From Thermoleptolyngbya sichuanensis A183 (GTDB lineage: Bacteria > Cyanobacteriota > Cyanobacteriia > Elainellales > Elainellaceae): a stretch of 64,000 nucleotides of DNA. Of the stretch, positions 8,417-41,091 are shown one piece after another. How positions within the stretch are numbered: position 1 is the stretch's first letter; each line of letters begins with the position of its first letter. Location: the NCBI RefSeq assembly GCF_013177315.1, contig NZ_CP053661.1, positions 372,001 through 436,000 on the forward strand, in the 5' to 3' direction. The position numbers were made by a program, and so were the translations under genes. The notes beneath the pieces were generated by a model, which saw nothing but the letters and a program-made list of their open reading frames with translations, did not search any database and had not been told where the DNA came from.

Positions 8417-9895
8417 TCATGCCTTCCCGCTGTCTTCGCCTTCCCGCGCCCGCCGCTCTCGGATCTCCCGGGCCCGCTGCTGGAGGTCTTTGAAGTAGCT
8501 GCTTTCGGTGATTTCGGCGACTTGGCGGGCGCGTTTTTCCTGGTCGATTTCGACGGTGGGCTTGATCACGCCCTGCACTTTTTCTTTCATTTGCTCGAAC
8601 AGGGCTTCGGTGTAGCCACCTTTGGTGGCGCGATCCAGGATGACGACGGCAAGGGCCGTACTGAGGAGGGCGATCGCCGCTGGCGCAAGGGGCACCCAAC
8701 CGCCCTGCAGAAACAGCAGGTACGACAATCCCGCCAGCACCAGCACCGCCACGCCCTCAGCAATCAGGAACCAGTGGGCTTTGGTAATCAACCAGGCGAT
8801 CGCCCCGCCCACCAGCGACCAGCCCAGCATCCAGAGCATTTCCACTGCCAGCGGCCAATACCACACCAGGGCCCGCTCTCCCTTGGCCGCGCTGACCAAA
8901 TGGCTGGCAATTTGGGCATGGAGGATCGCACCAGGGGTGGGTTCGCCGCCGTCGCGGTCGCCGCTGTAGGGCGTTTGAAACAGGTCTTTCTTGATACTAG
9001 AGGTATAGCCGATGATGACCATGCGATCTCGGATCAGATCAGGGGGCACCTGGTGTTGCAATACCTCCATCAGGCTGACTACGGGCGCGGCATGTTGCGC
9101 CGAGCGATAGCGCAGCATAATCTGATAGTCCGTCGCGCCTGTACGCCGATACCCTGCGGTCTGTCCTGCTGCCAGGGGTTTCAGCAATGCCTGACCCAAC
9201 TGAATTTCGCCGTTGGGGGCAGGAGCAGCGGTAATATTCTCGTCCTGCAAGTAAAACAGCGCCATTGACAAGCCCAGAGAGACCAGCGGATTGTCGGCGG
9301 CGGGCGTGTTGCAGCGGTGTGCCGTTTCCTGGGGCAGCCGCAGCGGATCGGTAATCACCAAGCTGGCGCGGCGGATTATGCCCCTGGGGTCGAAGGGCAG
9401 GTCGGCAAAGGCTACCCGTTCGTCGGGCACACTGGGGGGCGGCGCAAGGCTGGGTTCACTGGCTTTGGTGAGGGTGCAGGCAGCAAGGATGCGATCGCTC
9501 TGTTGCAGCACGCGCAGCAGTTCCTCTCGCCCTTCGCCCACAGGCAAGTCGCGCCCCACATCCAGCGCAATCACGCGCGGTTCCCCCTGCTCCAGATTTT
9601 GCAATGCTTCTGCCAGTGTGCCGTCGTGGATATCGGGCTGGCTCAGCGATTGAATATCCTGGTCGGAAATGCCCACCACCAGCAGCCGCTCATCGGGCCC
9701 CAGATCGGGCGATCGCCGCACCAGCGCATCGTAGGTGTCTAACTCGGTGCTTTGCAACAGCCCCAACTGACGCACCGCCACAACTGCTCCCGTCACGACT
9801 AAACTTGCCACACCCAGCGTCGCCGCCAGTGCCCGTAGCGCCTTCAGCCGTTTGCGCGTTGAACCCGAAAGGCGATCGCCCGATGGAGGAGTCAT
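8417..9895 (-). CDS. CHASE2 domain membrane protein without an output domain
   Basis: The ATG at 9895 gives 492 residues; the longer open frame to 10039 lacks a good start. One membrane segment (about residues 24-44) leads into an extracytoplasmic CHASE2 sensor domain (about 45-320: ERLLVVGISDQDIQ, RVIALDVGRDLPVG, RMVIIGYTSSIKKDLFQTPY). Three more membrane segments follow (about 335-430), then a charged coiled tail ending in an Arg/Glu-rich stretch. CHASE2 normally feeds a kinase or cyclase; none is present here, so it may signal through a partner or be purely structural. Transcribed with the MFS gene 74 bp downstream. Confidence 0.85.
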   Translation of the reverse strand: MTPPSGDRLSGSTRKRLKALRALAATLGVASLVVTGAVVAVRQLGLLQSTELDTYDALVRRSPDLGPDERLLVVGISDQDIQSLSQPDIHDGTLAEALQNLEQGEPRVIALDVGRDLPVGEGREELLRVLQQSDRILAACTLTKASEPSLAPPPSVPDERVAFADLPFDPRGIIRRASLVITDPLRLPQETAHRCNTPAADNPLVSLGLSMALFYLQDENITAAPAPNGEIQLGQALLKPLAAGQTAGYRRTGATDYQIMLRYRSAQHAAPVVSLMEVLQHQVPPDLIRDRMVIIGYTSSIKKDLFQTPYSGDRDGGEPTPGAILHAQIASHLVSAAKGERALVWYWPLAVEMLWMLGWSLVGGAIAWLITKAHWFLIAEGVAVLVLAGLSYLLFLQGGWVPLAPAAIALLSTALAVVILDRATKGGYTEALFEQMKEKVQGVIKPTVEIDQEKRARQVAEITESSYFKDLQQRAREIRERRAREGEDSGKA

Positions 9896-10201
9896 GGTAC
9901 ATGCAGCAAGGGAACTGCCTCTCATCCTAGGGCGGAGTCTAGGGGACAAGCGCCAGAGATCAGAGAAAATTCTGAATTGAGGCCCAACGTCCTGCCAAAC
10001 GGAATGGGCAAAGCCCGCATTTGGCGGAGAAAACCACACTTGGGCTGGCTAGAAAGCCGTCTCCAGGAGCACTGCCATTTTTTGCAGAATGAATTTGCAG
10101 AATGAATGCGAATTGCCGGGGCGGATTGCGAACCCGCGAACCGCCACCCTGCAAACCATACGCCCTGCACCCTGCGAAACCCTATTGCACCCAAGGCAAG
10201 A
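9896..10201. other. Divergent intergenic region with a 13-bp tandem duplication
   Basis: This 306-bp region separates the CHASE2 gene (minus) and the TPR gene (plus) and should hold both promoters. TTTGCAGAATGAA is repeated perfectly at 10081-10093 and 10094-10106. No gene was recognised in it. Confidence 0.6.
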
Positions 10202-10597
10202 ATGACGATGAATCTGGATCACAATCAAAACCAACCGGAATTTTGGGACGGACATGGCTGCGCCCTGTGCGAAACGGAGCAATTTTCAGAAGCCGTGGCA
10301 GCCTTTGACCGGGCGATCGCCCTCGACCCCAGCTATTGCAAAGCCTGGAACAACCGTGGCAATGCCCTGTGCGGTCTGAAGCGCTACGCCGAAGCGCTGG
10401 ATTCCTACGACCGCGCCGTGGCGATGCAGCCCGACTATCATCAAACCTGGTTTAACCGGGGGCTGCTATTTGCCGAAATGCAGGCCTACGGCAACGCGCT
10501 GGAAAACTTTGAGCAGGCGATCGCCCTCAGCCCCGATCCGCGCTATCTCCACGCCCGCGAAGACATCTGGCTCAAGCGCAAACTGATCTCGGCATAA
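10202..10597 (+). CDS. Tetratricopeptide repeat protein
   Basis: The ATG at 10202 (AAGG shortly upstream) gives 131 residues; an ATG at 10208 is equally possible. Three TPR units occupy about residues 14-112, recognisable by EAVAAFDRAIALDPSYCKAW, RYAEALDSYDRAVAMQPDY and NALENFEQAIALSPDP. A protein-interaction scaffold is expected; partners are unknown. It has no signal peptide and should be cytoplasmic. A REP-like element begins 10 bp after its stop. Confidence 0.85.
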   Translation: MTMNLDHNQNQPEFWDGHGCALCETEQFSEAVAAFDRAIALDPSYCKAWNNRGNALCGLKRYAEALDSYDRAVAMQPDYHQTWFNRGLLFAEMQAYGNALENFEQAIALSPDPRYLHAREDIWLKRKLISA

Positions 10598-33493: not shown

Positions 33494-34204
33494 TCAGGCC
33501 GCAGCCAATTTCGAGAAGACCCGACGCACATAATCCAAATCCAGGTCATTAAAATAGTCGATCGCCCAGTTGGCACGGCGCTGCATCATGTGAAACGGGT
33601 AGGTATTGGCAATGCCGACGACCTGCATTCCTGCCCGTTTCGCCGCTTCGATGCCTGCGAACGTGTCTTCAATCGCAAGACATTCTGATGGTTGCAGATT
33701 GAGTCCAGAAATGGCTTCGTTCAGCCGCTGCACCCCCAGCAAGTAGCCGTCTGGCTCTGGCTTGCTGGCGGCAATTTCGTCACCCGCCACAATGACTTTG
33801 AAATAGTCCGCCAGGTTTAGCCGGGCCAGCACCGTTTCAATTTCTGCTCGCACGGCTCCGCTGACGATCGCCATCGGCAGTTGCGCCGCTCGAATTTGAA
33901 AGATCAAATCCTCCAGTCCCGGATAGCTGGGCAGCTTTTCAATTTCCTCAATCTGCAACTGGTAATAGCGCGACTTGCGGGCTACTAGCTCATCCAGGTA
34001 CGTGTCGGTGACGATGCGCCCGCGCCGCGACAGCAGTTCTCGAATGCAAGCGCGATCGCTCCGCCCCACACAGATTTCCCGATACTCCTCTGGCTTCGGG
34101 CGCAGGTTCTCTTCCACCAGCAGCTTTTCTAGCAGCCGTTGGTGCAGCGGTTCGTCGTTGATAATGACACCGTTGAAGTCGAAGAGAATCGCGCGGAGAG
34201 ACAT
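33494..34204 (-). CDS. HAD-superfamily hydrolase, phosphoglucomutase-like
   Basis: The ATG at 34204 gives 236 residues; another in-frame ATG lies two codons upstream. Motif I is ILFDFNGVIINDE (about residues 6-18), with Asn where most HAD phosphatases have the second Asp (DxDG). Motif II is AIVSGA, motif III surrounds SKPEPDGYL, and motif IV is LAIEDTFAGIEAA. The helical cap resembles beta-phosphoglucomutase or sugar-phosphate phosphatases. The nucleophile Asp is present, but the changed general acid could limit phosphatase turnover. Substrate unknown. It is the last gene of the co-directional cluster; a purine/pyrimidine tract precedes its start. Confidence 0.8.
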   Translation of the reverse strand: MSLRAILFDFNGVIINDEPLHQRLLEKLLVEENLRPKPEEYREICVGRSDRACIRELLSRRGRIVTDTYLDELVARKSRYYQLQIEEIEKLPSYPGLEDLIFQIRAAQLPMAIVSGAVRAEIETVLARLNLADYFKVIVAGDEIAASKPEPDGYLLGVQRLNEAISGLNLQPSECLAIEDTFAGIEAAKRAGMQVVGIANTYPFHMMQRRANWAIDYFNDLDLDYVRRVFSKLAAA

Positions 34205-34320
34205 GGGCAAAGAGAGAGGAACAAAGAGGGAAGAGAGAAGAACGAAGACGGAAGAACGAAGAGGGAAGAGGTTGCGTTTTTCGTTTTTCGTTCTTCGTTT
34301 TTAGTTTTTTCCGTCACTTC
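34205..34320. repeat. Purine-to-pyrimidine low-complexity tract, copy 1
   Basis: On the plus strand about 70 bases of nearly pure purine (GAAGAACGAAGA-like units) switch to about 45 bases of pyrimidine-rich TTTCGTTCTTCG units. The halves are partly complementary and could fold into a long hairpin. The tract fills the gap between the HAD and methyltransferase genes. Confidence 0.8.
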
Positions 34321-34333
34321 TTCTCACATCATC

Positions 34334-35257
34334 TCATCCTCCCCTCACCGCCTCGCTGCGCCAATTCCATGCCCACTGGCGATCGCCCTCTCCTAGCGGC
34401 GTGGCAAACTCCACCGAGCGCACCTGCTGCCCTGGCAGCGGTTTTACGCCCTGCGTGATTTGGTGAATCACCCACAGGCTGTCGGTTTGCACCGCGCCAA
34501 ACCCGGCCTTGCCCATCCAGGCATCGACGCTGCCTGCGGCGTAGGCTTTGATGTAGGGTTCTTCAAAAATTTCCGCGAGCCACTCGGTCTGGCGGATCAC
34601 GCTCTGGTTGCCGTCTAGCACCAGCACTTGTCCGCCGACGGTCAGCAAGCGAAAGGCTTCCCGCAGGATGGTCTGGGCGACTTCGGGCGGCGTTTCGTGG
34701 AACAGTAGCGTGGCGGTAACGAGATCGAAGCTGGCATCGGGAAAGCCCGTCTGCTCAGCGTTTTGATGGACAAACTGGATATCGAGACGATTCCCGTAGG
34801 GATCGCTGCGCGAATCGCCCTTCGCTTTATCTTCTGCCACCGCCAGCATGTAGGGCGACAGATCCAGCCCGATCACCTCTGCCTGGGGGAACGCCCGCTT
34901 TAGCATCCGCGTCGAGGTGCCCGTGCCGCAGCCCAAGTCCAGAATTCGCCGGGGACTGCCCTGCACTCGCTCCAGCAGCGCCTTGCGAACCCAGGTTTCG
35001 TTCGGCGGCAGTGCGTATTGCGTAATCGGGTCGTAGGACAGCGCCGCTTCTAGGCTGAGATAGCCACCCTCGATGCTGTGAAAATTCTGGCTGCTGTAAT
35101 AGCTGGGGTATTCTACCGCTGGGTTGCGGAGGCGATCGCTCTCTTGCTGCCAATCGCGACTCTGGTAATAGCGCAGAATCGCGTCCCGGTCGATCAGGAA
35201 GGTTTTGACGACCGGAGCCAGAAATCGCTCAAAAATGGTGTCATTGCGGACAGGCAT
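34334..35257 (-). CDS. Class I SAM-dependent methyltransferase with inserted in-frame repeat
   Basis: The ATG at 35257 gives 307 residues. The SAM-binding motif I is ILDLGCGTGTSTRML (about residues 108-122). Motif II follows as AEVIGLDLSPYML, and FDLVTATLLFHE matches the motif IV region. Between the motif II helix and the next strand, bases 34787-34819 insert GDSRSDPYGNR, an in-frame copy of a repeat also found at 6104. The family looks like small-molecule or lipid methyltransferases. Directly downstream of the BtaA-like gene, it could methylate that enzyme's aminocarboxypropyl product, as BtaB does in betaine-lipid synthesis. That role is inferred from context only. Confidence 0.82.
   Translation of the reverse strand: MPVRNDTIFERFLAPVVKTFLIDRDAILRYYQSRDWQQESDRLRNPAVEYPSYYSSQNFHSIEGGYLSLEAALSYDPITQYALPPNETWVRKALLERVQGSPRRILDLGCGTGTSTRMLKRAFPQAEVIGLDLSPYMLAVAEDKAKGDSRSDPYGNRLDIQFVHQNAEQTGFPDASFDLVTATLLFHETPPEVAQTILREAFRLLTVGGQVLVLDGNQSVIRQTEWLAEIFEEPYIKAYAAGSVDAWMGKAGFGAVQTDSLWVIHQITQGVKPLPGQQVRSVEFATPLGEGDRQWAWNWRSEAVRGG
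34787..34819 (-). repeat. 33-bp in-frame coding repeat, copy 2
   Basis: 30/33 identical to 6104-6136, same reading frame, encoding GDSRSDPYGNR inside the methyltransferase. Confidence 0.85.
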
Positions 35258-35399
35258 AGGGCGATCGCGCCTCAAACGCGCCTCCAGGAGTTGAGTGCAG
35301 TCGTTTCGATTCTTGTTTGTAACGAATTGTTATATCAAGATTGTACCCCGATTCTACGGGTCAACAAGCAGGCTCCAGCACCCTTGCAAGCCTCTAGAA

Positions 35400-36593
35400 C
35401 TAGCAGATTTCCTCGACCACGAAAGCACTGTAGAAAAAGGCTTTGTCTTGGCGGTGCAGGGCTTCGGCCAGTTCGGGCAGGGGGCGCAGTTGATCTGCCA
35501 TCCCCTCTGGTCGGCTGCGGGGAGCCAGCATATTCCAATACACCAAGCGGCCGCCCGGTTTGCCCACTTGCGCCAGCCGATGCAGCAGGTGGTAATAGTT
35601 GGGCAGCGACAGATACTCGAAAATGTCGCTTAGGTTAAAGCGGGCGATCGCCCCGTGGGGCAGGCGCTTCAGATAATCTTCTACCGAGCAGCAGTGCCAC
35701 TCCAGTCGATGCAGGTTGGCCCGAATCGTGTCAAAGTGTTCGGGCTGAAGCGCGAGGGGTAGCGCCGTCAGATGTTGACCCGTAAGAATCCATTGCAAAT
35801 AGGGATTTTCAGCGGGGTCGAGCTGGGTGAGGGCGTAGCGGGTGCGGCTGAGGATGCGGCTAGCCACGTCGCCGTCTACATACTTGAAGAAGCTGGGGTC
35901 GCGCCCCATCCGCCCCATCACCAGCCGCGAAAAGAAAATCCGAAACATCAGCCGCCAGCGCCAAGTGTCCCACTCGCGCCGATAAAACCGCTCACACTGC
36001 TCCGGCGGGCCGCCCTCTAACAGCCGCATCACTTGGCGGCGCGAGTGAACCAGCGGCAGCACGCGGCGGCGAAACAGGTCAAAATAGCGCTCGAATTTGC
36101 CTGCGTGCCCGATACCCCGCTCGATCTCGGCTGGATGGGTATCCCAGAAGTAGCACACATCTGGCGAAAGCTGGCTGCGGCAGCGCTGGTAAAGTTCCGG
36201 TCGGTTGCGGCCCGGACGCGAGCCAATCAGCACCAGCAGTTCCTCATGCTCTAGCTCACGGTAGGCCGCGACCCGCAGTTCCAAACACGCCAACTGCGCC
36301 GGGCTGAGGTCGAGAGCGATGACTCGCGCCGGGTCTTGGGTAAGCATGGCCAGGGCATTGTCTCCCGCAGAGGCGATCGCCAGACAAGTGTCGCCGGGGC
36401 GGATATCCAGCGCCTCCAGCAAAATTTCGGCATCTTCCCAACACTGGGCGTAGCGGATATAGGAAAAGTCGGCCCGGCGCTGCACCTCTGAGGCAGCCTG
36501 GGGCAGGGGAGCCTGCGGTATGGATTTTCGGGGCGCATGGCCACTCAAGTCGCCCGTTGGTTCCTCGGTTTCGTCGTCTACTCTACTCAACAT
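35400..36593 (-). CDS. DUF3419 / BtaA-like 3-amino-3-carboxypropyltransferase
   Basis: A 397-residue protein. YIRYAQCWEDAEILLEALDI (about residues 45-64) and CLAIASAGDNALAML, followed by VIALDLSPAQLACLELR, are the BtaA/DUF3419 SAM-binding landmarks. BtaA transfers the 3-amino-3-carboxypropyl group of SAM to diacylglycerol in betaine-lipid synthesis. Conserved blocks FYRREWDTWRWR, FNLSDIFEYLS and LVYWNMLAPR also fit. The ATG overlaps the stop of the PPDK-like gene by 7 bp (ATGTTGA), so the two are translationally coupled. The methyltransferase follows by 142 bp. The acceptor lipid is unknown; classical betaine lipids are not a standard cyanobacterial component. Confidence 0.85.
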   Translation of the reverse strand: MLSRVDDETEEPTGDLSGHAPRKSIPQAPLPQAASEVQRRADFSYIRYAQCWEDAEILLEALDIRPGDTCLAIASAGDNALAMLTQDPARVIALDLSPAQLACLELRVAAYRELEHEELLVLIGSRPGRNRPELYQRCRSQLSPDVCYFWDTHPAEIERGIGHAGKFERYFDLFRRRVLPLVHSRRQVMRLLEGGPPEQCERFYRREWDTWRWRLMFRIFFSRLVMGRMGRDPSFFKYVDGDVASRILSRTRYALTQLDPAENPYLQWILTGQHLTALPLALQPEHFDTIRANLHRLEWHCCSVEDYLKRLPHGAIARFNLSDIFEYLSLPNYYHLLHRLAQVGKPGGRLVYWNMLAPRSRPEGMADQLRPLPELAEALHRQDKAFFYSAFVVEEIC

Positions 36594-39145
36594 ACACCTG
36601 CGCCCTCCTGAGACGCTTCGACGGTGGAAGCCCGCAAGATGGTTCCCGTGCTGCCGTCCATTTCCACCCAGTCGCCCGTTTGCAGCGCCGTGGTCACGCC
36701 GGGAATCGACACAATTGCTGGAATGCCCATCTCCCGCGCCACAATTGCCGCATGGGACAGCAGACTGCCCCTTTCCACCAATACGCCCGCCGCCGCCGGA
36801 AACAGCATGATCCAGCCCGGATCGGTGCGTTCGGCCACCAGGATGCTGCCCGGTTTTAGTACGGCGGTTTTGGGGTCGGTAATGACCTGCACCGGAGCGC
36901 GGACGCGGCCAGGGCAGCAGCCCAACCCTTGCAGGGTGCTGGCGTTTTGCGGCATTTGGGAACTGGCGGGTTGGGGAGTTGGCAACTGGAGGCGATCGCC
37001 CGGTGGGGGCAATTCTCGATAGCGGTCGAATTCGGCGCGACGGACATGCACCAGTCCCTTCAGGTCGTGGCAGGTGGCCGTGCCGTCGAGCTTGCCCAAG
37101 AGTTCCTCTAGCTCTAGATAAAAGACATCGCGGGGATCATCCAGCCAGCCCTCGGCATAAAAGCGGCGACCCAGTTCCACGGCGATGCGCCGCACCCGCC
37201 CAAACACGCGAGTCCGCTCGAAGCGCAAATTTTCGCGATCGCGCACCCGTGCCCTCGCGTTCTGAAGCACCCAGTTGAACAGGAACCGCCTCAGGGGAGC
37301 AGCCCGGAGGGACTGCTGCACCTGAGCTTCGGCGCGATGGCGCAGGGAGGGCTGGGGGACTGGGGCGATTGGCTCCATGCCGCCCTCCATGCCGCCGGAT
37401 GCTTGCCCCCTGACGGCTGCCAAACTGCCCACAGAGCGCAGGAGCATCAGCGGATCGTCCTGCAATGTGGGGCTTTCAAGCTTTAGTTCTTCTAGGCAGC
37501 GATCGCCAAATTTGGCCAAGTAATCCTCATATTGCGCCTGAAATGCAGGAAAGGCAGAGAGCTTGGCGCGAATGTCCCAGAGGGAACCCCGTTGCAGCAA
37601 CTCGACAAGGGCAGGCGACTGGGCAGCGGTGTGGGCCATCTGCTGAATGCGGCGGGCGGGTTCGGCGCTGATCATGCCGCCTTCGCCGCTGATCAGGTCG
37701 TTTTGCAGGGTTCCGGCAGCGTCGCCACACCAAGCGGCGGTGAGCTTTCGCAGCACGCCGTAAAAGATCATGGCGAAGAAGTCGTTCACAAGGGGCGCAT
37801 CCCAGCGGGTCAAAAGCTGGCGCTCTAGATCGTAGTAATGGGCGACGAGTTCTTCGGCACTGCGAGTGTCTAGCGAGGCAGCGGGCAGGCTGAGGGCCGC
37901 ATCCAGACGAGCATAAAATCGGCGAATCTGATCCGGTAAGGTTAGATAATTTTTCACCAGACCCAGCAGCGTTTTGACCAGACGCAGGCTATCGCGAATC
38001 TTATCCTGGGCAGTGGCCTGCTGGAGCGTGGCGAGGACATCGGCAGGAAGCTCCTCCTTCACGCCCATCATCTGTTCCATAAAGCGGCGATTTACCTGGA
38101 ATCCGGGCAGCAGCGCCAGCACGCGATACCAGTTCAGCAAGTTGTAGTAAATCCGCCCCTGCACCAGCCCCAGCAGACAGCGGAAGGTGGAGTCCTGCTG
38201 GGCGATCGCCCCTTCCGCAACGCCCATCATCCGGCAAAATTCTCGATACACCGCTTCGTAGGCGCGGCGGGCAAAGGAAAAGGTGAGCGGCGTGGTGATG
38301 CCACCGTAGCTCTCAGCAATGTTGCTGTTGTCCCAGATGACCAAGCGGCTGTCGGGGTCGGGCTGGCCGCGCAGGGTAGTGATGGGGCGCGATTGCAGGA
38401 GGTAAAGCCGGCCCTGGGCGATCGCCCATTCGATATCCTGCGGGCAGGCAAAGTGGCGCTCGGCGCAGCGGGCAAGCTGGGCAATGTCGCGCACCTGCGC
38501 CAGAGTCAGCACTGGGTTTGCGGGGTCTTGCGGTTGCGCGGAGAGAATTTCGCCGCCCCGATTCACCGTCCAGGTGTCTGCATCCGACTCGCCAGAGACG
38601 AGGGTTTCGCCCACGCCCCGCACCGCCGACACCACCGCCACGCCCCGCTGATGGGTAATCGGGTTGGCGCTGAACGCCACGCCAGCCAGCTCTGCACTCA
38701 CCATGCGCTGCACCAGCACGGCCGGCGGTGGGGGCGGTTCCGTTAGCCCATGCTCGCGGCGATAGGCGAGCAGGCGATCGCTCGTCGCCGATTGCCACAC
38801 CTGCACAATGCGATCGCCCACTTGCTCCGGCGGCACAAACAAATAGCTCTCTAGCTGCCCCGCAAACGACAGCGTTGCGCCATCCTCCTCCACCGCCGAT
38901 GAGCGCACGGCGACGAGTTCCCCCTGGGGACACAAGCGGGCGATCGCCGCCCCCAGTTCTGCCCTCACCGCCTCGGTCAGCGCGACTCCCTGCCCTGCGG
39001 TGAACGCTTCCGGCGACACCACAAACCAGTCGGGAATCGGAAACTCGCCCGTTGCGGAATGCTGCAAATCGTAGAGCGATCGCGCCTTGCCGCCGAGTTG
39101 ATCAGGCGGGAGGTCGGGGTCAGCAGAAAAGAGGATAAAAGACAT
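36587..39145 (-). CDS. PEP-synthase/rifampin-phosphotransferase-like enzyme (PPDK_N + His mobile domain)
   Basis: The ATG at 39145 gives 852 residues; an upstream in-frame start would add a low-complexity segment from the purine/pyrimidine tract. The N-terminal ATP-grasp domain (about residues 1-290) shows LGGKARSLYDL, VRSSAVEEDG, VQRMV and LLQSRPITT. A central domain of about 430 residues, without a recognised fold, could bind an acceptor. The C-terminal swivelling domain carries catalytic H798 (GSLLSHAAIVAREMGIPAIV). The layout and length match rifampin phosphotransferases, which use ATP and a phospho-His to phosphorylate a hydroxyl acceptor. It overlaps the BtaA-like gene by 7 bp. Confidence 0.85.
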   Translation of the reverse strand: MSFILFSADPDLPPDQLGGKARSLYDLQHSATGEFPIPDWFVVSPEAFTAGQGVALTEAVRAELGAAIARLCPQGELVAVRSSAVEEDGATLSFAGQLESYLFVPPEQVGDRIVQVWQSATSDRLLAYRREHGLTEPPPPPAVLVQRMVSAELAGVAFSANPITHQRGVAVVSAVRGVGETLVSGESDADTWTVNRGGEILSAQPQDPANPVLTLAQVRDIAQLARCAERHFACPQDIEWAIAQGRLYLLQSRPITTLRGQPDPDSRLVIWDNSNIAESYGGITTPLTFSFARRAYEAVYREFCRMMGVAEGAIAQQDSTFRCLLGLVQGRIYYNLLNWYRVLALLPGFQVNRRFMEQMMGVKEELPADVLATLQQATAQDKIRDSLRLVKTLLGLVKNYLTLPDQIRRFYARLDAALSLPAASLDTRSAEELVAHYYDLERQLLTRWDAPLVNDFFAMIFYGVLRKLTAAWCGDAAGTLQNDLISGEGGMISAEPARRIQQMAHTAAQSPALVELLQRGSLWDIRAKLSAFPAFQAQYEDYLAKFGDRCLEELKLESPTLQDDPLMLLRSVGSLAAVRGQASGGMEGGMEPIAPVPQPSLRHRAEAQVQQSLRAAPLRRFLFNWVLQNARARVRDRENLRFERTRVFGRVRRIAVELGRRFYAEGWLDDPRDVFYLELEELLGKLDGTATCHDLKGLVHVRRAEFDRYRELPPPGDRLQLPTPQPASSQMPQNASTLQGLGCCPGRVRAPVQVITDPKTAVLKPGSILVAERTDPGWIMLFPAAAGVLVERGSLLSHAAIVAREMGIPAIVSIPGVTTALQTGDWVEMDGSTGTILRASTVEASQEGAGVC

Positions 39146-39310
39146 AAGGGAGAGGGAGAGGGAGAGGGAAAAATGGAATAAAGAAAAACGAAAAAGGAAA
39201 AATGGATCTTCGCTCTTCATTCTTCATTCTTCGCTTTTCTCTCTTCGTTCTTCGTTCTTCGTTCTTCATTCTTCTCTCTTCGTTCTTCATTCTTCTCTCT
39301 TTCCCCCTCC
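39146..39310. repeat. Purine-to-pyrimidine low-complexity tract, copy 2
   Basis: Plus-strand GAGAGGGAGAGGGA and AAAAACGAAAAAGGAAAAA units change to TTCTTCGTTCTTCG units over about 165 bp. The organisation is the same as at 34205-34320. It fills the gap between the UbiA and PPDK-like genes and places its purine-rich part just upstream of the PPDK-like start. Confidence 0.8.
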
Positions 39311-39318
39311 AACACTCC

Positions 39319-40215
39319 CTACCTGACCCAGAACGGCACCAGGCCCAGAATCAGGCACACGCCCAGCACCCAAAAGCCCGTCACGCCCTGAAAGGCATCG
39401 GCCCAGGCGGGAACAGGGCGGGCAAGGAAGCGCCAGGAAGCGACCATCGCCAGGGTGAGCAGGGGCAGCACGGCCAGAACCCCCAGGGGCAGGATGCCGA
39501 CGGCGCGGGCGGCCATGAGCGTGGCGATCGCCATCAGCCAGATCACCGTCAACCATGCGATCGCGGCTCGCTGCACCCCCCACAGCGCCGTGTAGGTTTC
39601 CACACCAGGTTCCTCGTCCTGGGGAGCGCGAATTTTGCGGCCGATTTCGATGGACAGACTAATGAAATAGCTGACCCCGCAAAACCAGAGCATTCGCCAG
39701 TCGGGCAGAGCCTGGGCGATCGCCCAGTCACACGCCATTGCAAACCCCGCCATCAGCGGCAAAATCACCGCGTGGGATAGCAGATACACTACAGGACGCG
39801 CCTTGAGCCAGCGCGGGGCAAAAAACTCGCGGGTCATCAGCCCCAGATATGCCCACACCAGTCCTAGCATTCCCACCAGCGATCGCCCGACTGCAAGTGA
39901 CAGTCCCAATTGCAGCACACCTGCGGCGATCGCCACCCAACCCAACTCCGTCAGCGTCACCAAACCGCGCGGCACGGGGCGATAGGGGCGAAACTGGCGA
40001 TCGGTGTCAGCATCTTTGAACTCATCCGCAACGCGCAATTGCAGGAAAAACAGAAACAGACAAGGGAAGGCGATCGCCCATGCACCCACTGGAAACGCCG
40101 CCGCGCCCCGCACCAGCGCCCCATAGCCCACCGCCCCCGCCGCAAACGCCGCAATCAGCAGCCCGTTGGTCAGTAGGGGAAAGCGTTCTTTTTGGTAAGT
40201 CCACCAGCGGTTCAT
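39319..40215 (-). CDS. UbiA-family prenyltransferase
   Basis: A 298-residue membrane enzyme with about eight or nine hydrophobic segments. The first Asp-rich prenyl-diphosphate/Mg2+ motif is ADEFKDADTDRQFRPYRPVP (about residues 63-82), and the second is around EIGRKIRAPQDEEPGVETY (about 190-208). The family attaches prenyl groups to aromatic or polar acceptors (quinones, chlorophyll, heme, archaeal lipids). The acceptor here is unknown; the second motif differs from those of the chlorophyll and menaquinone enzymes as remembered. Its start is 15 bp after the DUF72 stop, so they are co-transcribed. Confidence 0.88.
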   Translation of the reverse strand: MNRWWTYQKERFPLLTNGLLIAAFAAGAVGYGALVRGAAAFPVGAWAIAFPCLFLFFLQLRVADEFKDADTDRQFRPYRPVPRGLVTLTELGWVAIAAGVLQLGLSLAVGRSLVGMLGLVWAYLGLMTREFFAPRWLKARPVVYLLSHAVILPLMAGFAMACDWAIAQALPDWRMLWFCGVSYFISLSIEIGRKIRAPQDEEPGVETYTALWGVQRAAIAWLTVIWLMAIATLMAARAVGILPLGVLAVLPLLTLAMVASWRFLARPVPAWADAFQGVTGFWVLGVCLILGLVPFWVR

Positions 40216-40230
40216 GGCAAAACAGGCTCA

Positions 40231-41091
40231 TCAAAACAAACTCAACTGCTGCGGTTCTTCGGGGGGTTGGGCGATCGCATCCCAGGGCAAAGGGGGCACC
40301 GGTGCGCCCGCCTGCTCTAGCCAGTATTGAAACTGTCTGGCATTGCGGGGAGAATGTTCCTCCACGGGGCAATGGATAAATAAGTAAACTCGCTTGTCGG
40401 CTTGCAGCCATTCGGTGATTTGCCGTGCCCAGTCCTGAAAGTAAGGTTCGTTGAAGTCGAGGCTGGGATGGCTAATGTAGCGAATCAGCGCCGTGTCGGT
40501 GGTGAGGGTTTTGTGGAGCGGAACACGGGGCTTTTTGCGCTCCGACCGGATCTGGGGGTCGTCGGGGCAGTCGTAAATCGGGCGCGTGTCGAGTAAGACG
40601 CGGCTCGTGTGGTAGCCTGCCAGCAGATACGTTAGCTCGATGGTATTGACCTCTCGAAACCAGTCCAAATGCCGGACTTCAACGGCCAGCTCGGCGCGGT
40701 CGTGGGGCCAGCCCGCCAGAAATGCCCGCAGGTCGTCTTGCTGGGCAGGGCCATAGCTGGGCGGAAGCTGGAGAAACATCGGGCCGAGGCGATCGCCCAG
40801 TCCTGCCATGCGATCCAAAAAGGCGATCGCCGCTGGCAGTTGCGGAGCCAGCAAGCCCTGATGCGACACATCGCGCGGCAGCTTAGGGCAAAAGTGAAAC
40901 CCCGCAGGCGTGTCCATCACCCAACGCTGCACGGTCTGCTCGTCGGGCGTGGAATAAAAGGTGGTGTTGCCTTCCACGGTTGTAAACCGCTGCCCATAAA
41001 GCCGCAGAAAATCCGCCGACCGACTCCCGCTGGGATACAATCCGCCCACCCAGGCTTTATATGCCCAAATCGCGCAGCCAATCCGAAACAT
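40231..41091 (-). CDS. DUF72 (YecE-like) TIM-barrel protein
   Basis: A 286-residue soluble protein. FRIGCAIWAYKAWVGGLYP at the N-terminus, TTVEGNTTFYSTPDEQTVQRW, and PAGFHFCPKLPRDVSH are DUF72 landmarks. The family has a TIM-barrel fold and an unestablished reaction. The ATG is at 41091. It is the first gene of the minus-strand cluster (15 bp to the UbiA gene). It may be a passenger, since DUF72 proteins are widespread outside lipid clusters. Confidence 0.87.
   Translation of the reverse strand: MFRIGCAIWAYKAWVGGLYPSGSRSADFLRLYGQRFTTVEGNTTFYSTPDEQTVQRWVMDTPAGFHFCPKLPRDVSHQGLLAPQLPAAIAFLDRMAGLGDRLGPMFLQLPPSYGPAQQDDLRAFLAGWPHDRAELAVEVRHLDWFREVNTIELTYLLAGYHTSRVLLDTRPIYDCPDDPQIRSERKKPRVPLHKTLTTDTALIRYISHPSLDFNEPYFQDWARQITEWLQADKRVYLFIHCPVEEHSPRNARQFQYWLEQAGAPVPPLPWDAIAQPPEEPQQLSLF

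Follow-up and report, generated by a model that had tools for sequence, protein, structure and literature searches.

The window analysed here, 64,000 nucleotides of Thermoleptolyngbya sichuanensis A183 (contig NZ_CP053661.1, positions 372,001 to 436,000), carries on its minus strand consecutive genes for a UbiA-family membrane prenyltransferase (39319-40215; Pfam UbiA, 4.3e-12), a rifampin-phosphotransferase-like dikinase of the PPDK type (open reading frame 36587-39220, probable gene 36587-39145; PPDK_N, 3.2e-48, and PEP-utilizers, 8.9e-26) and a BtaA-like DUF3419 protein, a predicted S-adenosylmethionine (SAM)-dependent 3-amino-3-carboxypropyl transferase (35400-36593; PF11899, 4.7e-70). Judged from the sequences of related loci, these are the three core genes of a larger module. 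Three further genes on the same strand flank them. All six open reading frames were re-located exactly where the first-pass annotation had placed them; the 7-bp overlap of the dikinase and DUF3419 genes (36587-36593) and the 15-bp gap between UbiA and the outer DUF72 gene are exact, and Pfam agrees with each of the six family calls. The first 25 codons of the dikinase reading frame (39146-39220) fall within a TTC/CTT-rich simple repeat, which spans 39150-39330 between the UbiA and dikinase genes. From its homologues the dikinase probably starts at 39145, so the gap to UbiA would be about 170 bp.

The six window proteins and two further neighbours served as tblastn queries against loci of other genomes of the phylum, where UbiA, the PPDK-like protein and DUF3419 were found together, other classes included. 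Scanning the genome collection with a DUF3419 alignment then yielded 511 relatives of the window protein, and the best 80 of these come from about 16 phyla. Their source groups are Cyanobacteriota, Deinococcota, Planctomycetota, Verrucomicrobiota, Chloroflexota, Pseudomonadota, Geobacter-type bacteria, Gemmatimonadota, Acidobacteriota, Bacteroidota/Rhodothermales, Latescibacterota, Rokuibacteriota, Krumholzibacteriia, Armatimonadota, Bacillota and Acidimicrobiia, a few single records (for example Brevibacillus) being possible contamination. Of the loci whose upstream sequence reaches 5 kb or more, 59 in all, 56 have both UbiA and the dikinase near DUF3419. Because gene order is kept in about 16 phyla, the arrangement of the middle three genes is not due to chance. 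The cluster had been framed as cyanobacterial; it is indeed found in Cyanobacteriota, but that scope was too narrow, as many phyla carry the module.

Module composition and neighbouring genes

Clustering of the neighbouring open reading frames brought out four more recurrent families: a homologue of HMG-CoA reductase (HMGR), a VTE-like membrane protein (about 450 amino acids) with a VTE5-type polyprenol-kinase-like domain as its first half, a GNAT protein (about 330) and an AMP-forming acyl ligase (about 526). The module thus comprises UbiA, the dikinase, DUF3419, GNAT and the ligase, usually with the VTE-like gene and often with the HMGR-like one. All seven are present in 25 of the 42 loci open on both sides, and median intergenic gaps range from -6 to +8 bp over the four gene pairs measured. 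All seven also stand at the loci of Methylomonas sp. SURF-1 and Alkalilimnicola ehrlichii AK92, and the locus of Calothrix PCC 7716 lacks the HMGR-like and VTE-like genes. The HMGR-like and VTE-like genes tend to travel together, with both in 27 of the 42 loci, neither in 10 and one only in 5 (Fisher p ~1e-5, uncorrected for shared ancestry). A minimal six-gene version occurs on a Roseinatronobacter plasmid as a tight run of adjoining or overlapping genes, two of which are annotated 'hypothetical protein'. In several filamentous cyanobacteria (L074, L112, L113, L115 and L122) a radical-SAM/SPASM gene and two conserved unknown genes lie upstream of UbiA, and a Verrucomicrobia variant (L054:4706-9989, L069:4653-9922) holds a PigE-like aminotransferase with a weak KR match, a second dikinase and a SnoaL-like protein inside the module.

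Across 49 genomes the five core families have correlated distance matrices (rho 0.76-0.90), with none of 500 permutations reaching values as high; by this measure of sequence divergence the five families co-evolve. We are nearly certain that the module works as a single functional unit, which bears out the earlier proposal that the UbiA, Rph-like and BtaA-like proteins act together. The most likely overall reading is that of a horizontally spread module of five to seven genes.

The Thermoleptolyngbya genome itself holds all seven module genes. The four that are missing from the window are single clear orthologues scattered on the 5.5-Mb contig, at 153385-154365 (GNAT), 274357-275907 (ligase), 2620467-2621738 (HMGR-like) and 3640122-3641504 (VTE-like) in contig coordinates. 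Six of the genes (DUF3419, UbiA, dikinase, HMGR, VTE-like and GNAT) were profiled in 89 sampled genomes of the class, the ligase being sought in this genome only; Thermoleptolyngbya and G008 are the only two that match all six strongly. This co-occurrence of module genes without co-location strongly supports a single pathway. A homogentisate-type UbiA prenyltransferase-like gene, recognised by eye, adjoins the scattered HMGR homologue in the Thermoleptolyngbya genome (L159:2606-3655).

The three outer genes of the window encode a HAD hydrolase (33494-34210; Pfam HAD_2, 2.3e-30), a class I SAM methyltransferase (34334-35275; Methyltransf_25, 2.6e-23) and a DUF72 protein (40231-41091; DUF72, 1.3e-56), all on the minus strand. 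In the tblastn search and the neighbour survey none of them was seen next to the module at the other loci examined, and same-strand adjacency is their only tie to it. Co-conservation, which the first-pass annotation had expected of the whole set, therefore holds for UbiA, the PPDK-like protein and DUF3419 and fails for the other three. HAD and DUF72 are rejected as pathway genes on this ground, despite the 15-bp gap. The methyltransferase has orthologues with 50-70% identity in many cyanobacteria across the class; they are present without DUF3419 in G058, G005, G024, G002, G133, G183 and G169, and in G008 the orthologue lies on a different contig from the module. On this distribution we judge it to be a general cyanobacterial gene outside the module. 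Across the loci no methyltransferase is co-conserved with the module. A BtaB query found no match in the four module loci searched, yet the same query matches beside rhizobial btaA.

Protein families of the module

The Pfam match of the DUF3419 protein is near full length (positions 4-382 of 385). Its AlphaFold model (pLDDT 92) has a class I SAM-transferase fold with a helical insertion (Z ~13); a sequence search found no convincing relative in the PDB. Of 75 highly conserved positions, 36 hold the same residue in a rhizobial BtaA whose gene adjoins that for BtaB (L152), among them Y48, WED 52-54, S75/G77/N79, D95, N263, D383 and Y388, and the motifs Y-x3-WED, SxGxN and D-x4-Y are common to both. 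The earlier proposal had staked itself on such an alignment, and the SAM-site motifs shared with BtaA are kept. In a tree the rhizobial BtaA is the nearest outgroup to the module proteins, weakly (90/77).

DUF3419 genes also occur in other settings. A separate cluster in three cyanobacteria (L036:9562-12357, L037:8643-11282, L041 ~9532-10497) keeps the order fatty acid desaturase, haem-oxygenase-like iron enzyme, DUF3419 and GNAT-like gene. On Rhizobium plasmids (L154:1-6254 and L153) DUF3419 adjoins a CoF synthetase, L154 also carrying KASIII, an oxidoreductase and an MBL-fold protein. An unannotated btaA-like reading, apparently split over two frames, lies in a Sinorhizobium meliloti pSymB record (L151:2348-3627).

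The dikinase consists of an ATP-grasp domain, a central substrate domain and a C-terminal swivel domain with the phospho-histidine. It matches rifampin phosphotransferase (Rph; 5hv1) in structure over its full length (Z 29.4, 751 residues), as the first-pass annotation had described its layout; the root-mean-square deviation is large, presumably from a different position of the swivel domain. It also matches HpeI. Numbered from 39145, the catalytic S797-H798 and the ATP-grasp residues are invariant or nearly so among 72 homologues, with H798 present in every one. The protein scores below the cut-off of every listed NCBIfam Rph, PEP-synthase and PigC/RedH model, including RIF_Ptrans_rph (251.7 bits, cut-off 999). 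With a score so far below the cut-off and no antibiotic genes recognised, a role in Rph-type antibiotic self-resistance was rejected. Pfam recognises PPDK_N and the mobile domain only, so that the C-terminal PEP/pyruvate barrel of a PEP synthase or PPDK is missing from its matches.

A UbiA profile built from 32 homologues matches archaeal digeranylgeranylglyceryl-phosphate (DGGGP) synthase (6m31, 7.8e-06), the nearest solved relative. The first Asp motif, D64-E65-x-x-D68-x3-D72, is nearly invariant in 71 homologues, all of which have D64, D68 and D72, and E190, R193, K194, E201 and Y208 are nearly invariant as well.

The HMGR-like proteins keep the catalytic E119, K250, D324 and H415 in 42 of 42 sequences. 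In the same 42, A, V, I, C, Q or T stands in the column of the HMG-carboxylate-binding arginine (Arg590 of the human enzyme). A search of 20 genomes, of which 17-18 carry the module and G089 and G024 do not, gave no HMG-CoA synthase match over cut-off, and with the arginine replaced a place for the HMGR homologue in the classical mevalonate route is unlikely. In the VTE-like protein, the N-terminal half aligns with a VTE5-type paralogue of the same genome, itself recognised by motif (hhalign 99.6%), and carries the RKxxH, DxxAAxVGxxxG and KSxEG motifs; one homologue matches CTP_transf_1 at 5e-4, just under the gathering score. The second half was compared with VTE6/DUF92, with no match detectable. 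For the ligase, the nearest named model is the fatty-acid-CoA-ligase PRK09274, with a score under its cut-off.

Proposed product and the alternatives

Taken together, these families suggest as product a lipid or lipid-like compound with a prenyl chain and an amino-acid head group, N-acylated and not trimethylated. We hold this with roughly even confidence, a figure for the reading as a whole and not for its single steps. The HMGR-like enzyme would yield a primary alcohol by reducing some acyl-CoA, though not HMG-CoA. This product, or another isoprenoid alcohol, would be phosphorylated by the VTE5-like, CTP-dependent kinase. UbiA would move the activated chain onto an acceptor, whose hydroxyl the dikinase may phosphorylate or otherwise activate, from ATP through phospho-histidine to substrate. 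The BtaA-like enzyme would then place the 3-amino-3-carboxypropyl group of SAM on a hydroxyl, the ligase would activate a fatty or similar acid, and GNAT would amidate the new amine with it. The predicted end product is an N-acyl-homoserine ether of a prenylated core in place of a trimethylated betaine lipid. N-acylation is favoured over N-methylation because GNAT and the acyl ligase, with the VTE5-like and HMGR-like proteins, make up the rest of the module; the GNAT-like gene in the other cyanobacterial DUF3419 cluster lends the amidation step some weight. Amidation in place of BtaB trimethylation is the most distinctive prediction. Of the earlier idea of a prenylated or phosphorylated lipid with an aminocarboxypropyl, then methylated, head group, the prenyl, phospho and aminocarboxypropyl parts survive as proposals and the methylation does not. 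More tentatively, with a probability we place below even, the module may define an undescribed class of bacterial membrane lipids or lipid-like compounds, made by a mobile set of five to seven genes in about 16 phyla. In these a homoserine unit derived from SAM would bear a single isoprenoid chain and a single acyl chain in amide linkage, with the HMGR homologue acting on a non-HMG acyl-CoA.

Several points weigh against the N-acylated lipid. The correlated distances reflect shared species history in part. The HMGR-like and VTE-like genes are not universal in module loci, and in some cyanobacterial loci the radical-SAM gene and genes for proteins of 342 and 161 amino acids take their place. 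The acceptor side of the DUF3419 protein differs from that of BtaA (NLSDIF against LLDAQD), and GNAT has no close solved relative (no convincing PDB match by sequence). G007 and G029 hold HMGR, UbiA, dikinase and GNAT together, and no close DUF3419 was found in either genome. Assignment of the scattered Thermoleptolyngbya genes to the pathway draws on orthology and co-occurrence. We infer the BtaA-family activity, and likewise every substrate, the order of the steps and the product. The resemblances of UbiA and the dikinase suit an aromatic or pigment product equally well.

That last point leads to the alternative we take most seriously while judging it unlikely, a small diffusible meroterpenoid, pigment or redox cofactor. 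UbiA would then attach its prenyl chain to an aromatic ring, the dikinase would act on a phenol as a kinase or power a condensation like that of PigC, and the amino acid and acyl groups would be added as tailoring. The dikinase scores 1e-80 to 1e-90 against the prodigiosin ligases PigC/RedH, and its structural matches, Rph and HpeI, point the same way, the related two-part HpeHI kinases being known to phosphorylate phenols (PMC12167813). So do the PigE-like aminotransferase, weak KR match and second dikinase of the Verrucomicrobia variant and the P450-like genes near a few loci (cluster 12, a family recognised from sequence without a profile search). However, dedicated aromatic or pyrrole-forming enzymes went unrecognised in most loci, MMPL-type transporters adjoin the module in a few (confirmed by Pfam in L086), and the BtaA relatives of known function work on lipids. 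It is improbable that DUF3419 is a SAM enzyme of another kind, transferring a methyl or other group to give a product without aminocarboxypropyl. Its Foldseek and VIA matches are ordinary class I methyltransferases and its identity to rhizobial DUF3419 proteins is just 26-29%, but the full-length family match, the motifs and residues held in common with BtaA and, though weakly, the tree argue for the BtaA family.

The two remaining alternatives carry very little probability. A supply of isoprenoid precursors through mevalonate to ordinary prenyl lipids or quinones would account for the HMGR homologue, whose catalytic residues are intact and whose gene accompanies those for UbiA and a VTE5-like kinase; the lack of an HMG-CoA synthase match over cut-off in 20 genomes, most of them carriers, the replaced arginine and the modules without HMGR make it very doubtful. 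Most doubtful of all is an operon for the betaine lipid diacylglyceryl-trimethylhomoserine (DGTS) with the adjacent methyltransferase as BtaB. The window does show a BtaA homologue followed by a methyltransferase, the gene logic on which the first-pass annotation relied. That logic fails here because methyltransferase orthologues occur in genomes without DUF3419, and the operon was rejected on this distribution, with the separate contig in G008, the failure to find the gene beside the module elsewhere and the BtaB search of four module loci speaking against it as well.

Relation to known systems

No published description of the module was found in the open-access literature, subscription papers and preprints lying outside the search. 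The enzyme families are known; their combination, spread and probable product are undescribed in the literature searched. Such a pathway would run through hundreds of sequenced genomes from many phyla, its genes named generically or as 'hypothetical protein', and a membrane-lipid product, should it be one, may correspond to an unassigned peak of environmental lipidomes. The BtaA, Rph and HMGR families would each gain a new role that can be put to the test.

One close parallel is BtaA/BtaB of DGTS synthesis, with which it shares the SAM-site motifs of BtaA and, presumably, 3-amino-3-carboxypropyl transfer to a hydroxyl; unlike that system, it has no co-conserved BtaB and includes UbiA, a dikinase, a polyprenol-kinase-like protein, GNAT and an acyl ligase. 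Lipocone systems, for which the paper describing them names UbiA and HMG-CoA reductase, have different gene neighbourhoods. Compared with class I HMG-CoA reductase, the module homologue keeps the catalytic Glu, Lys, Asp and His, whereas the HMG-carboxylate arginine is replaced, no HMG-CoA synthase turned up in the genomes searched, and the gene is either scattered or clustered with an acyl ligase and a kinase. The module UbiA has the domain and first Asp-rich motif of prenyltransferases such as DGGGP synthase and chlorophyll synthase, but its second motif is altered to E-x2-RK-x-R...E...TY. Finally, the dikinase has the ATP-grasp, central and swivel-His domain order of Rph, HpeHI, PpsAB and PigC/RedH, with the catalytic His intact, and differs from the Rph/PigC group in falling under the curated cut-offs and in being conserved within a biosynthetic module.

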